In this document: positions 11,801 through 56,800 of the stretch, piece by piece
How the letters are laid out: each line of letters opens with the position of its first letter
Numbering within the stretch: the stretch's first letter is position 1
DNA from: Dysidea avara
Taxonomy: Eukaryota > Porifera > Demospongiae > Dictyoceratida > Dysideidae
Length of the DNA stretch: 64,000 nucleotides
Reading direction: 5' to 3'
Assembly: GCF_963678975.1 (NCBI RefSeq)
Contig: NC_089273.1
Span: 9,796,614-9,860,613, forward strand
Notes under the pieces: model-generated
Told to the model about the DNA's origin: nothing
Database searches by the model: none
What the model saw: only the letters and a program-made list of their open reading frames with translations
Program-made: the position numbers and the translations under genes

Positions 11801-14800
11801 GCTTTAAACAAGTTGCTATGGAATTTAGAAAATTATTTATTTAGCGGAATTTTCTACTGATTGACTGAGTAAGTAAACAACTAACTGATGCCTTCAGACA
11901 AGCGTAATTCAATAATGGCTAAGGCTACAGGCTTGTTTTTTTCACTGTTCGACATTGCTTCGGCCCAGCAGGTGCCTTTTGGCATACTGCAATATGTACA
12001 ATGCATTCTTCATGGACTTACCAGCGTCCTCCTTTGTCTCCCATTAATCTCTGCTGACAGAAAAAAGTGTCGATTTGGCAATAGCACGTGATGGCTTCCC
12101 TTCGTAATAGAAATTGTCTGCATTTTTCATAGTGGCTATCTTGATAGCAGAGTTGATTTTCAAACAGTTCTTGATTCATACTGCTGTGTAACATAGCCGA
12201 CAACGAAGAGTAATAGAAGCTTCACTTTTCAGACGATAATTGATATAACTGGGACGCACGGCACCATTTCTTTTGGTATGCGTGGATTGCAGAGATGCTT
12301 TTCGAACAGTTCTTGATTCAAAATGCTGTGTAACAGGTTGAACATAGCTGACAATGAAGCATAATTGATACTTCACTTTTCAGATGATAATTGGGGTGCG
12401 CGGTGCCATTTCAGATGCGGTATGCATGGGTTTACAAGTCATAATCAAGACTCACGGTAGTGAGTCGCGCGGCCAAGAAACTACAAAGCGCACGCCCAAT
12501 TAAAAGACGCGCGGCCACTACTGTGAGTTATTTACGTGTAGGGCCTATTTCACAATATTAGTCCTAGATTATGCAACATCTCTCAATAGATTTGTATTGC
12601 GTTACATGCTAAAAAAATCTTTAGGAGTCGTCATCATCATCATAGTTTTGTTGCGACCTCGCTAAAATAAAAAAGTAACCATCGCAAAATAAAAAATAGG
12701 CTTATTTCACTTTATTTCTCTACCTTATGTTACAACTACTGTCACGTTATACCAGTCAACATAGTCGTGTTTGTATAGTCCATCTAGCACTGACATTATC
12801 CAATCCTGGTTTGCCTATACGCGTATTTTCTTCAATCAAACCTCTAATCCCTACAATAACTTTTAAAGGCACGACGTGGACACAAACTCTAATGCCTGAT
12901 AAACAAGTTGTGACAACGTGCTGAACGGTAAGTTCCCTAGGGATGGCATTTTAAGCAGAAATCTTTTAAATTCCATTTAGTGCCACACCCCAATGCGAGC
13001 GTTTATAACTCGCCAGTTGTCTTATGGTGTGAAGAGCAAAATCACTAGCGAAGGTGCTTTAAGCATACTCTTCAATTCTCTATTTACATGTAATTTTTAA
13101 TAGATTAACCACAAAGGCCGATAAGGTGCATGAATACAAAAGGTAACAAGCCTTTAGGGGTTACCACCTCTATGTAGTGTTTACCATGTACCTTGTGTTG
13201 TGGCTTTCATTAAGTATTATGCACACACAAATGGTGCAACAAAATTTTGTAATGGATTGCTTGAATGTGGTTCGTGGTGTTGTGGCTCGAATGTGGTTCG
13301 TGGTTTGCCAGTGACCATGTATGAGTTGGGGTTGTTCCACACAACTTACACAATATTCAAATTTCATGATGGCCATGAAAATTTCTTGCCATATGGTAAA
13401 CATACAACAATGTGTAACAACGTTAATCAACATCACATCAAGACTTGACTAAAAATAGTTCCAACAATAGTGATGATTTCTTGTATGTCAGCATGACGAT
13501 ACTGAGACCTGTAAAAGAATAAGCAGGCACTGAAGTTAACCTTAAATTAAACACTCATGCAACTGACCTGGAACATTGGTTGCAACACCAAAAACACTTG
13601 TTTCGATATCTGATGACACAATCCAGCAGGCACTGAATTAAAAGAGAATGTACAAAAAATCAATATGCCGGGCTGTATCAATAATAGCATGGATAATCAA
13701 AATGAACAAAAATTATATCCCAGGCTAAGTGAATGAATAACATAACTGTTGGGTAAGCATGTCAAACCTGAACATTAGGACATTAGTCAAACAAAAGTAC
13801 GCTATCACAACTTGGTCATAATACAATGTTTGTACCACTGGACTTCACACTGGTTGCCCAAAAATTGTGCCATTCCAGGACAACAGTATAATTATGAAAC
13901 AAATAGTTACTACAACACAGAAGGCTTACTGTTGTACTGTCTACACTGATATACCATAATTTAAAAACATAACAGGTAGGCATTAAATACAATACACTTA
14001 ACATCTGGGTACTAGGAAAAAATCACTAACATCACAACATGTAAACTGACCTAGAAATTAACACCTTTGATGCCACTACAGTCTACACTGGGTATTTGTT
14101 TGAACCCATCAACACTATACCTGATACATCTGAGTAGACTGACCTGCAAATTCACATCACTAGTATACAGTGATAATTGATAACTACAAAAACAACAATT
14201 GCAATAATACAATTCTTCTGTACGTCAACTGACCTGAAATTCATGATACTCGATACCGAGACCTGTAAAAGAATAAGCAGGCACTGAAGTCAACCTTAAA
14301 TTAAACACACATGCAAACTGACCTGGAACATCGGTCGCAACACCAAGACACCAGTTTCGATATCTGATGAAACAATCCAGCAGGCACTGAATTAAAAAGA
14401 GAATGTGCAAAAAATCAATATGCCAGGCTGTACCAATAAAGGATGGATAATCAAAATGAATTAAAAATATGTATATATCCCATATGCAGTTTAAGTGAGT
14501 AACATAACTGTTGGGTAAGCATGTAAACCAGAACATTAGGTCATTGGTCAAACAAAAGTACGCTATCACAAACTGGTCACTGATAATTGATAACTACAAA
14601 AACAACAATTGCAATAATACAATTCCTCTGAACATTAACTGACCTGAAATTCATGACACCTGTATCTTTGTTCTTGCGTGGTCTCAACTTACATATGTAC
14701 CATGATCACATTCAACTGCTAGTGGATAAACCAGTATGACCAGATGGCCTGCAAAAACCAACAAGCAGGTGTTAAATACAATACACCTAAAGCCTGGAAT

Positions 14801-53800: not shown

Positions 53801-56800
53801 CCCTGTAGAAAGATCAGTTAGAAGAAGTTACTTTGTAGAGAGTTCAGCTACAAAGAAACCATTCTTTAAAGAGCTCAGTTGCAAACAAACCACCTGTACA
53901 GAATTCAGCTACAAATAAATCACCCTGTAGAAAGATGAGCTAGAAAAAGTTACCTTGTAGAGAGTTCAGTTACAAAGAAACCACCATGTAGAGAATTTAG
54001 CTACAAACTAGTGACCCTGTAAAGACATCAGCTAGAAGAAGTTACCTTGAGAGAGTTCAGCTACAAAGAAACCATTATCTAAAGAGCTCAGCTGCAAACA
54101 AATCACCTATACAGAATTCAGCTACAAACAAATCACCATGTAGAGAGATCAGCTAGAAGAAGTTAACTTGTAGAGAGTTCAGCTACAAAGAAACCATCAT
54201 TTGTGACCGGATTTGCGAAAAGGTACCTTTTTCACACACAAAATTTGACCCATGTTTTGAACTTTGATGCTTCATAATGTCTTTATCATTGCATATAATT
54301 GCCTGAACTTTTCCATGAGTGTAGCTAAAGTATTTGGCTACATTCTGAAAGTTAAAGCAAGTTGGTCAGCGTAAGGAGTCAAGCGTTACATCATTTTGTT
54401 TGCTTACATGTAAAATGTGTGAAAATGGTACCTTTTCGCAAATCCGGTCACATTTAGAGAGTTCAGCTTCAAACAAATCACCTGTAGAGAGTTCAGCTAC
54501 AAACAAATCTCCCTGTAGAGAGATCAGCTAGAAGAAGTTACCTTGTAGATCGTTCAGCTACAAACAAATCACCCTGTAGAGAGATCAGTTAGAAAAAATT
54601 ACCTTGTAGAGAGTTCAGCTACAAAGAAACCATCATGTAGAGAGTTCAGCTGCAAAGAAATCACCCTGTAGAAAATTCTGCCAGAAACAAATTGCCCTGT
54701 AGAAAGATCAGTTAGAAGAAGTTACCTTTTAGAGAGTTCAGCTACAAAGAAACCACCTGTACAGAATTCAGCTACAAACAAATCACCTGTACAGAATTCA
54801 GCTACAAACAAATCACCTGTAGAGAGTTCAGCTACAAACAAATCTCCTTGTAGAGAGATCAGCTAGAAGAAGTTACTTTGTAGATGGTTCAGCTACAAAC
54901 AAATCACCCTGTAGAAAGATCAGTTAGAAGAAGTTACTTTGTAGAGAGTTCAGCTACAAAGAAACCATTCTGTAAAGAGCTCAGCTGCAAACAAATCACC
55001 CGTAAAGAATTCAGCTACAAACAAATCACCCTGTAGAGAGATCAGCTAGAAGAAGTTAACTTGTAGATAGTTCAGCTACAAAAAATCTCCCTGTAGAGAG
55101 ATCAGCTAGAAGAAATTACCTTGTAGAGAGTTCAGCTACAAAGAAACTATCATGTAGAGAGTTCAGCTGCAAAGAAATCACCACTGCCCAAATTTCAAGG
55201 CAATAGCTCTTTCCAATCTGAAGTTATCAATTGTCAAAGTTGGCAAATTGGATGTGTGTGGAAGACCCCTTTTCGCAAATCCGATCACATATGTATTATA
55301 TATATAATTTGTACATTTACTGATAAAATATTTAAAGTACATCTACTTCATCTTTTCGTCTTCCTGTAGTAAAGAAAAAAAACATAGGTTAAAAAAGTCC
55401 CAAAGCTGGCCATAGGCCGGCTTTGGGGTATACAAATACAAAAAGAAATGAAATCTAATCCAAAACAGCCAAGCTGTAAAAAAAGTGTGCGGCCCTCAGA
55501 AAGGCTATGGTGAAAAAAGATGTGAAATCCAAGGTGGCAGCCAAGAAATGGCTGTGATGGTAGGTTAATGGTAAAAATTTTAATAACGACAATTCAGGTG
55601 AATTTTTGTGCCGCTTCACAAAATTTACCTGAATTGTCATTATTAAAATTTTTACCATTAACCTACCATCACAGCCATTTCTTGGCCGCCACCTTGGATT
55701 TCACATCTTTTTTCACCATAGCCTTTCTGAGGGCCGCACACTTTTTTTACAGCTTGGCTGTTTTGGATTAGATATTATATAACATGAATATGTTGCTAAA
55801 GCTTGAGCATTTTCTGGTGAATAATAGCAATACACAGCAGGAAGACCAAAACAATCTTTTACCTACAAATGTGTTACTTTGTCCAGTTGTATAACCAGAC
55901 TTCTGTTGCTAACCATACATCTTGTTGCATAACTGGACATTCTGTTGTGACGGCCCAGCTCATTTCATCAGTACTGTAACAGTTGTGTCATGTGAGCAGG
56001 ATAGCCAACAATGCCAATACTACAGCTAAACATGATATCCATTCTACCATACATGCGCATCAAATCTAGCCTGATACCTATCTGGTTGTATATACAACTA
56101 GGCATAAAGATAACAGTGTTTTTCCCAGTTACATAACCAGTTGACCACTATAGAATCTGAATATTGAGTTGTACAACCGAGCAAAGGCGTGTGTAGTAAA
56201 CTGATTTGTACAGTGCCTATACTACAGTAGATATATGTGCAAAAAAATAAATCATAAGTGCTCATTTAATTAATCATAAGTACTGGGTACAACAGTCTAC
56301 GTAGTAGATGCTTATTTCATTATATTCACTATGAAATGGGGCAATCATCAAAGTTGGCCTCTATTATACCCATACAGTACTATCAAGTAGAAAGCTTAGA
56401 AACAGCAATTATCAATTTACAAATCACTGCAATGTAAACATGCAGAAATAATTCACATTGTTACACAAATGAATATAATTATTATATTGGACTATCCATG
56501 AAAACAGAAATCCAGTGGTGTTTTGGATATTCCAATTCAATAATTTTCCACTGTTTAATGAAGTAATTAAATGTGCATAATAATATCATTGTATTATGCA
56601 ATTATTACCCAATTTATTTCAATGGCATTTATCTCAAAAAATGAAGTTGGTCAGGTTTTCAATCAGCAGCTTACATATGCGTACAACTTGCTCTATAATA
56701 GCCTCTTAGCCCTGTGTGCTTTATTTGCTATTGTTAATTTCCACTGTGAAAAAGATGGGATATAAGATGGTATTTCCAGTGGCTTATTGAATACAAATAA

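Follow-up and report, generated by a model that had tools for sequence, protein, structure and literature searches.

High-copy repeats with a giant 3' foldback in Dysidea avara, best filed as a non-autonomous variant of the Helitron superfamily

Three copies of a repeat that starts with a 5' hairpin and ends in a giant 3' foldback are found in a 64,000 nucleotide stretch of the sponge Dysidea avara (NCBI RefSeq assembly GCF_963678975.1, contig NC_089273.1, forward-strand positions 9,796,614 to 9,860,613; hereafter, the window). The repeats are best placed in the Helitron superfamily, as a new, non-autonomous variant with a giant terminal stem; the reading as non-autonomous rolling-circle elements is given a probability of about 0.72. 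The elements begin with TCAAGAC and the 5' hairpin. The 20-mer at this end (TCAAGACWCACGGTAGTGWG) has 7,861 exact matches in the 550.8 Mb, 108-contig assembly (3935 and 3926 by strand), while the same pattern read backwards, used as a control, has 0. Within the window, exact matches start at 12445, 27686 and 50124 (window shuffles average 0.02). The copies are as follows.

12445 to 17480, + strand: copy I, family C, TC...GGGTGGA, between A and T; located by the 20-mer, with an empty site in locus L017 and 5035/5036 nt covered by locus L026
27686 to 32404, + strand: copy II, family B, TC...GGATGGGA, between A and T; located by the 20-mer, with empty paralogous sites and an interior also present in L022, L024, L025 and L028
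50124 to 55772, + strand: copy III, family A, TC...GGATTAGA, between A and T; located by the 20-mer, with empty paralogous sites
50980 to 55182, + strand: core of copy III, diverged ~61-bp tandem repeats

Judged by their sequences, the window copies represent three subfamilies (A, B and C) of one very large repeat group with common ends. Subfamily A has an ACACAC stem, a core of ~61-bp tandem repeats and a foldback that is usually ~321-338 bp. Subfamilies B and C both have an ACTCAC stem, with foldbacks of ~631-639 bp and ~812-817 bp, respectively, and each has an interior of its own that recurs. Likeness among the three window copies is limited to the first 29-91 nt, tens of nucleotides of the foldback and one short dispersed motif. 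The elements are present in high copy number, and no coding was found in the A, B and C copies. A first-pass annotation of this DNA, made from the sequence alone, had described one element family with three different cargoes and a resemblance to cargo capture; because each subfamily has its own recurring interior, three subfamilies are favored over one element with three cargoes. The short motif, centered on GATACTCTAATAGAG, has 16 exact core matches in 13 sources (window position 50926, L011, L020, L026, L029 and others), and a stretch related to it is present in the interiors of A, B and C.

The boundaries were defined using empty sites, which were sought by joining both flanks of each window copy and searching the collected window and locus sequence. 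For copy III, five paralogous window stretches (at ~63.7, 37.4, 44.5, 18.7 and 25.6 kb) are empty, all with A|T at the insertion point. Copy I has an empty site, also A|T, in a dispersed repeat of L017. For copy II, three paralogous stretches (~39.5, 45.6 and 20.0 kb) are empty and show no duplication. Empty sites without duplication are available for 3/3 window copies and for one nested copy in L020, where one family-A copy lies within another at GAAGAA|TCAGAC. An A precedes the element in 29/30 5' flanks, the sole exception being the degenerate 5' end at 2611 (see below), and a T follows it in 22/23 outer 3' flanks (20 inner-arm tips set aside). The first-pass coordinates of the three 5' ends and three foldbacks agree with the exact 20-mer matches and mapped arms, and its statement that the empty sites of copies II and III have at most AT duplicated is upheld; the empty site of copy I adds to it.

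The pairing of the two ends supports the 5' hairpin and the foldback as the two ends of one element. The sample comprised 18 exact family-A foldbacks from a stretch of contig C1 common to the lists of foldbacks and 5' ends (one at the list edge was omitted). An inward-pointing exact 5' end lies 3.3-5.3 kb away from 16/18 of these (random mean 2.9, maximum 9 in 2000 draws), and an outward-pointing 5' end lies within 12 kb of 3/18. From the other side, 19/24 sampled 5' ends have a foldback downstream, with up to ~9.7 kb examined; none was found over this distance for L009, L015, L021, L023 and L027. The first-pass proposal of a single mobile group with coupled ends is consistent with these counts, and the genome check that it suggested, for hairpins and foldbacks occurring independently of one another, did not find such independence.

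Family-A copies that abut one another are strongly biased in orientation. A genome-wide pattern search found 103 head-to-tail, 5 head-to-head and 4 tail-to-tail junctions (exact bases required: 10+13, 13+13 and 10+10, respectively). Among 100 listed head-to-tail junctions, 65 have GGATTAGA joined directly to TCAAGAC with zero bases between (split by eye); 2/5 head-to-head and 0/4 tail-to-tail junctions are perfect (the latter with gaps taken from place lengths, and with 3 junctions rather than 4 when the pattern uses longer arms). Random A|T insertion would be expected to give half head-to-tail (p ~1e-21) and, as a rough estimate, one perfect junction genome-wide. Many of the gapped junctions contain AT repeats, and local site preference may account for some part of the abutting copies without explaining their orientation. 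Helraiser yields precise head-to-tail joined circles (PMC4778049), and Helitron tandem arrays are reported (cited in PMC4067079). The Helitron resemblance proposed at first pass is strengthened because abutting copies are biased toward head-to-tail, and the elements likely work like Helitrons.

Both the 5' end and the segments just inside the two ends have the following structured features.

12449 to 12466, + strand: copy I, short 5' hairpin GACTCAC-GGTA-GTGAGTC, seen in the sequence
12445 to 12530, + strand: copy I, longer 5' fold with nt 6-29 paired with ~12506-12528 (DNA fold -19.9 kcal/mol, z -4.5)
27686 to 27771, + strand: copy II, longer 5' fold (z -3.5)
50124 to 50188, + strand: copy III, longer 5' fold (z -3.6; short hairpin of the first 20 nt alone, z -2.9)
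12467 to 12486, + strand: copy I, 5' subterminal inverted repeat GCGCGGCCAAGAAACTACAA (19/20 inverted match to 17429-17448; 0/2000 shuffles)
17429 to 17448, - strand: copy I, 3' subterminal inverted repeat, 33-52 nt from the 3' end
27714 to 27726, + strand: copy II, 5' subterminal inverted repeat CAAGTAAAGCAGA (13/13, p=0.001)
32349 to 32361, - strand: copy II, 3' subterminal inverted repeat, 44-56 nt from the 3' end
50146 to 50154, + strand: copy III, possible subterminal repeat GTGCGGCCC (9/9, p=0.11, not significant alone)

The 5' repeat starts at nt 23 in family C and nt 29 in family B. In each family, an inverted copy of the segment following the hairpin is located a short way inside that family's own 3' tip; no match is seen between the B and C repeats. 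An alternative pairing of the first 20 nt, with a segment ~60-85 nt downstream, is available in all three window copies. The covarying 5' stem of the first-pass annotation stands in part. The short hairpin is real, and the A-T/T-A stem pair is maintained at 100/100 listed exact 20-mer places (by eye). A looser 5'-end search found a further stem change in ~10/100 listed copies; by eye, none of these is matched by an opposite Watson-Crick change, and a few leave G-T. Because the change from A-T to T-A separates two lineages, and so would be one event, and because the further stem changes are uncompensated, this covariation is considered weak evidence.

The 3' end of each copy is dominated by the foldback.

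16671 to 17482, no strand: copy I, giant 3' foldback (arms 16671-17065/17088-17482, 395 nt, 99% alike, 22 nt loop)
31771 to 32409, no strand: copy II, giant 3' foldback (arms 31771-32078/32102-32409, 308 nt, 98% alike, 23 nt loop)
55448 to 55778, no strand: copy III, giant 3' foldback (arms 55448-55606/55620-55778, 159 nt, 97% alike, 13 nt loop)
32378 to 32392, + strand: copy II, small 3' hairpin ACAGCT-ATA-AGCTGT, 12 nt before the 3' end (fold z -3.1)
55749 to 55761, + strand: copy III, small 3' hairpin ACAGC-TTG-GCTGT, 11 nt before the 3' end (fold z -0.8, no better than shuffles)

Among 23 outer 3' ends, 17 terminate in TAGA, 4 in GGGA, 1 in TGGA and 1 in TGGT. The foldbacks of A, B and C are alike only in their outer tens of nucleotides, and the first-pass idea of a terminal hairpin that "has grown" is not borne out. 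Foldback (FB/TU) elements have long inverted repeats, one at each element end; assignment to this class was rejected, as both arms of the present foldback are at the 3' end.

Several observations weigh against a Helitron-type element. As the first-pass annotation had already noted, CTRR is absent from the 3' terminus (0/23 outer ends). The small 3' hairpin of family A is no better than shuffles (z -0.8), and that of family C is not formed in the computed fold. The family-A subterminal match (9/9) is not significant alone (p=0.11), and cross matches are seen between families (C-to-A, p=0.001; A-to-C, p=0.049). No Rep-Helicase with the same ends was found in the 8 loci examined of 150 scored. 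The coupling of the ends was counted in samples of 18 foldbacks and 24 5' ends. In the copy II empty sites, the base before the insertion point is T, C and C, so that A|T is present only in the filled copy; the A|T site claimed at first pass holds for copy III (and copy I) and not for these paralogues. Target choice or substitution could explain the non-A bases. Finally, an AT duplication with C...G ends is formally indistinguishable from A|T insertion without duplication.

Compared with known systems, the elements have a mixed anatomy. Like canonical Helitrons (Helitron1; Helraiser, PMC4778049), they have a 5'-TC, an A|T target without duplication (an AT duplication being formally indistinguishable, and the paralogous empty sites of copy II lacking the A), precise head-to-tail joins and, less clearly, a small hairpin that ends 11-12 nt before the terminus in A and B. 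They differ in lacking CTRR and in having a 5' hairpin, subterminal repeats and a giant stem. The canonical hairpin is 16-20 nt and ~11 nt from the 3' end, whereas here it is 13 nt (A) and 15 nt (B) at 11 and 12 nt, respectively, with that of A no better than shuffles and that of C not formed in the computed fold. Because CTRR is absent, the elements are not members of Helitron1. Features of the Helitron2/Helentron/HINE group are also present, namely hairpins at both ends and matching subterminal inverted repeats 33-56 nt from the 3' end (C and B); a 5' repeat that starts no more than 0-4 nt into the element and a T-rich or TT target are not. Helitron2 (Bao and Jurka 2013, PMC3627910) and FoHeli1/2 of Fusarium (PMC5148889) share with them hairpins at both ends, asymmetric terminal inverted repeats of which the 3' one is just upstream of the 3' hairpin, and a compensatory change in the 5' hairpin; FoHeli1/2 also start with TC and a hairpin. 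These systems insert at TTTT|T or C (Helitron2) and TNAT|A (FoHeli1/2) rather than A|T, and the giant 3' foldback and the lack of a Rep-Helicase with these ends (8 loci) set the present elements apart. HINE/DINE-1 elements (non-autonomous Helentrons; PMC4067079, PMC7492417) are similar in having no coding found, high copy number, tandem copies, a 5' subterminal repeat with a nearby inverted copy, a core of microsatellite and tandem repeats (as in family A) and a 3' subterminal repeat followed by a palindrome. HINE/DINE-1 use T-rich sites, have the matching repeat at nt 2-4 rather than nt 23-29 (a shift of ~22-28 nt inward here) and end in a palindrome of 5-10 bp rather than a 159-395 bp stem; the present elements, in addition, start with TC. 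By target site and repeat position, then, they are not Helitron2/HINE members. The proto-Helentron of Phytophthora infestans (PMC4067079) likewise inserts at A|T without duplication and falls outside the canonical group, although it starts with TT, ends with CTAG and encodes a Rep-Helicase, which the present elements do not. Joined or tandem head-to-tail copies, a feature of the superfamily as a whole, are present here (103 vs 5 and 4). Among the papers searched, with the key ones represented by excerpts, none was recognized as reporting so large a foldback in a Helitron. The anatomy is a mix of Helitron1 traits (5'-TC, A|T) and Helitron2/Helentron/HINE traits (5' hairpin, subterminal repeats, tandem core), and a tentative extension is that the elements belong to a separate lineage of rolling-circle elements, served by an unseen Rep-Helicase of its own. 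In such a lineage the ~20-nt hairpin would have been replaced by an inherited 160-400 bp stem and CTRR by KRGA, and Helitron1 targeting would be combined with Helentron-style paired ends.

A cut-and-paste origin is unlikely. In this case the elements would be non-autonomous DDE transposons with C...G ends and a 2-bp AT target-site duplication, and the boundaries are equally compatible with AT|AT; in addition, TC opens both the tip of the inner arm and the element itself. However, TC is all that the extreme ends have in common, where terminal inverted repeats would be expected, and insertion into palindromic AT predicts half of the abutting copies to be head-to-tail rather than the 103 observed against 9 in other orientations.

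An autonomous partner was sought among Rep-Helicase genes, of which there are many in the genome (150 scored matches to the PF14214 profile). The loci examined were L029, L030, L031, L033 and L034-L037 (L035-L037 on the 5' side only). None of the eight has the TCAAGAC 20-mer as its own start, allowing up to 4-5 mismatches, and the autonomous copy with Rep/helicase or another transposase that the first-pass annotation suggested looking for was not encountered with these ends in this set. A CCTGCACG-type hairpin and a CTAG end identify L030, L031 and L033, which have Rep-Helicase frames, as canonical Helitrons. In tblastx comparisons of the eight Rep loci with the element loci, read as the best match per pair only, no pair was obtained for L030, L035 and L036; the best matches of the other loci fell within family-A DNA or lay outside the long Rep frames. 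It is improbable that the genes within family-A elements (L029 with L038, L031 with L032, perhaps L037) are the autonomous partners, partly antisense as in some Helitron2. In L029, where Rep and Helicase domains were found, the gene lies antisense between a family-A 5' end and foldback; that of L031 lies between family-A parts, and L037 has family-A DNA upstream. Opposed to this are the L031 insert's own TCTATATT...CTAG ends at A|T, a similar gene in L033 that has the same 3' end with no 5' 20-mer possible as its own start, and junctions in AT or AAT simple repeats. L039, in which no family-A end was seen, is a weak control: of four further loci, it alone could be aligned to the L029 region (L040-L042 could not). 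The Rep genes of L029 and L031, within family-A elements at AT simple repeats, look nested. At L029 2274-6437 and L038, ~560-bp direct repeats (89%) are present on both sides of the Rep-Helicase gene, which is antisense within a family-A element, and an OTU-like frame was seen by eye upstream of the L029 Rep-Helicase.

The origin of the foldback was addressed by comparing arms in 20/26 foldbacks (15 copies of A, 3 of B and 2 of C). Left out were L012@4562 (merged), L010@3550 (truncated), L028@4637 and L022@4535 (irregular), and window@290 and window@56742 (unrelated); inner and outer labels are swapped for L012@5031 and L026@4152, an error that affects the in-in and out-out averages and leaves the own-partner test unchanged. 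If the stem were a by-product rather than a signal, made anew in every transposition as the 3' end snaps back and is copied, each arm should be closest to its own partner. This is the case for 1/30 family-A and 0/6 family-B arms, and identity in family A is about the same within a copy (0.919) as between copies (0.912-0.916), so rebuilding has little probability, and the giant stem in A and B is inherited rather than remade per jump. The 97-99% likeness of the window arms is compatible with rebuilding, as are the 33 changes common to both arms in family A (permuted mean 23, but within the permuted range, maximum 43). Family C may differ from A and B in foldback inheritance, because the own partner is the best match for 4/4 of its arms (two copies).

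Chance adjacency of a 5' hairpin element and a separate palindromic foldback MITE (miniature inverted-repeat transposable element) was rejected as highly improbable. In its favor, the foldback alone is a near-perfect palindrome with MITE-like TC...GA ends beside A and T, 2/18 foldbacks lack an exact 5' end nearby and 5/24 5' ends have no foldback found. This view is largely refuted by the 16/18 inward 5' ends at 3.3-5.3 kb. Moreover, family-A copies have in common the sequence immediately internal to the inner arm but differ in the outer flank, and the empty sites span from the 5' end to the outer arm.

The proposed model for transposition as a Helitron-type element is as follows. A Rep-Helicase supplied in trans would nick at the 5'-TC and peel off one strand. 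Copying would stop at the 3' end, where the strand would fold into the 159-395 bp stem with subterminal repeats matching the 5' end. The ends would then be joined into a circle or multimer, and insertion would occur between A and T without duplication. A Rep-Helicase as the mobilizing enzyme, the circle and the role of the foldback as a strong terminator are all putative. The 3' hairpin of Helraiser is a terminator that can be bypassed (PMC4778049), and how Helitrons choose the point at which copying stops is a question that the present elements can address. Terminator strength, read-through and copy success can be studied as in a natural experiment in families whose terminal stems are many times longer and whose 5' ends number thousands in one genome. 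The 103:5:4 ratio also shows that an assembled genome is sufficient for counting joined-end products, allowing the circle model to be tested without an active element. In L012 (reverse strand), a second, more diverged foldback 3' end is located behind the first, at 4848-5129 from the 5' end; its placement would fit either a bypass of the first terminator or a hit on an older copy.

Further features were noted in the window and in database searches. A degenerate fourth 5' end is present at 2611 to 2630 (+ strand), with 2 mismatches to the 20-mer and a G as the preceding base; a blast of positions 1-12400 against the three elements gave no terminal match, and no A, B or C foldback was found for it. 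No exact match to a 22-mer of the element 5' end was found in IMG/VR, and no match to the family-A foldback was found in phage records. A further foldback at 56742-57078 is unrelated to this group. Six paralogous copies in tandem span window positions 5585-62411. Among 10 scanned window frames, 1 has a Calx-beta match above the Pfam cut-off (E-value: 4.6e-9) and 1 has a match below it (E-value: 0.0017). The tandem Calx-beta genes of the window presumably resemble a sponge aggregation-factor cluster.

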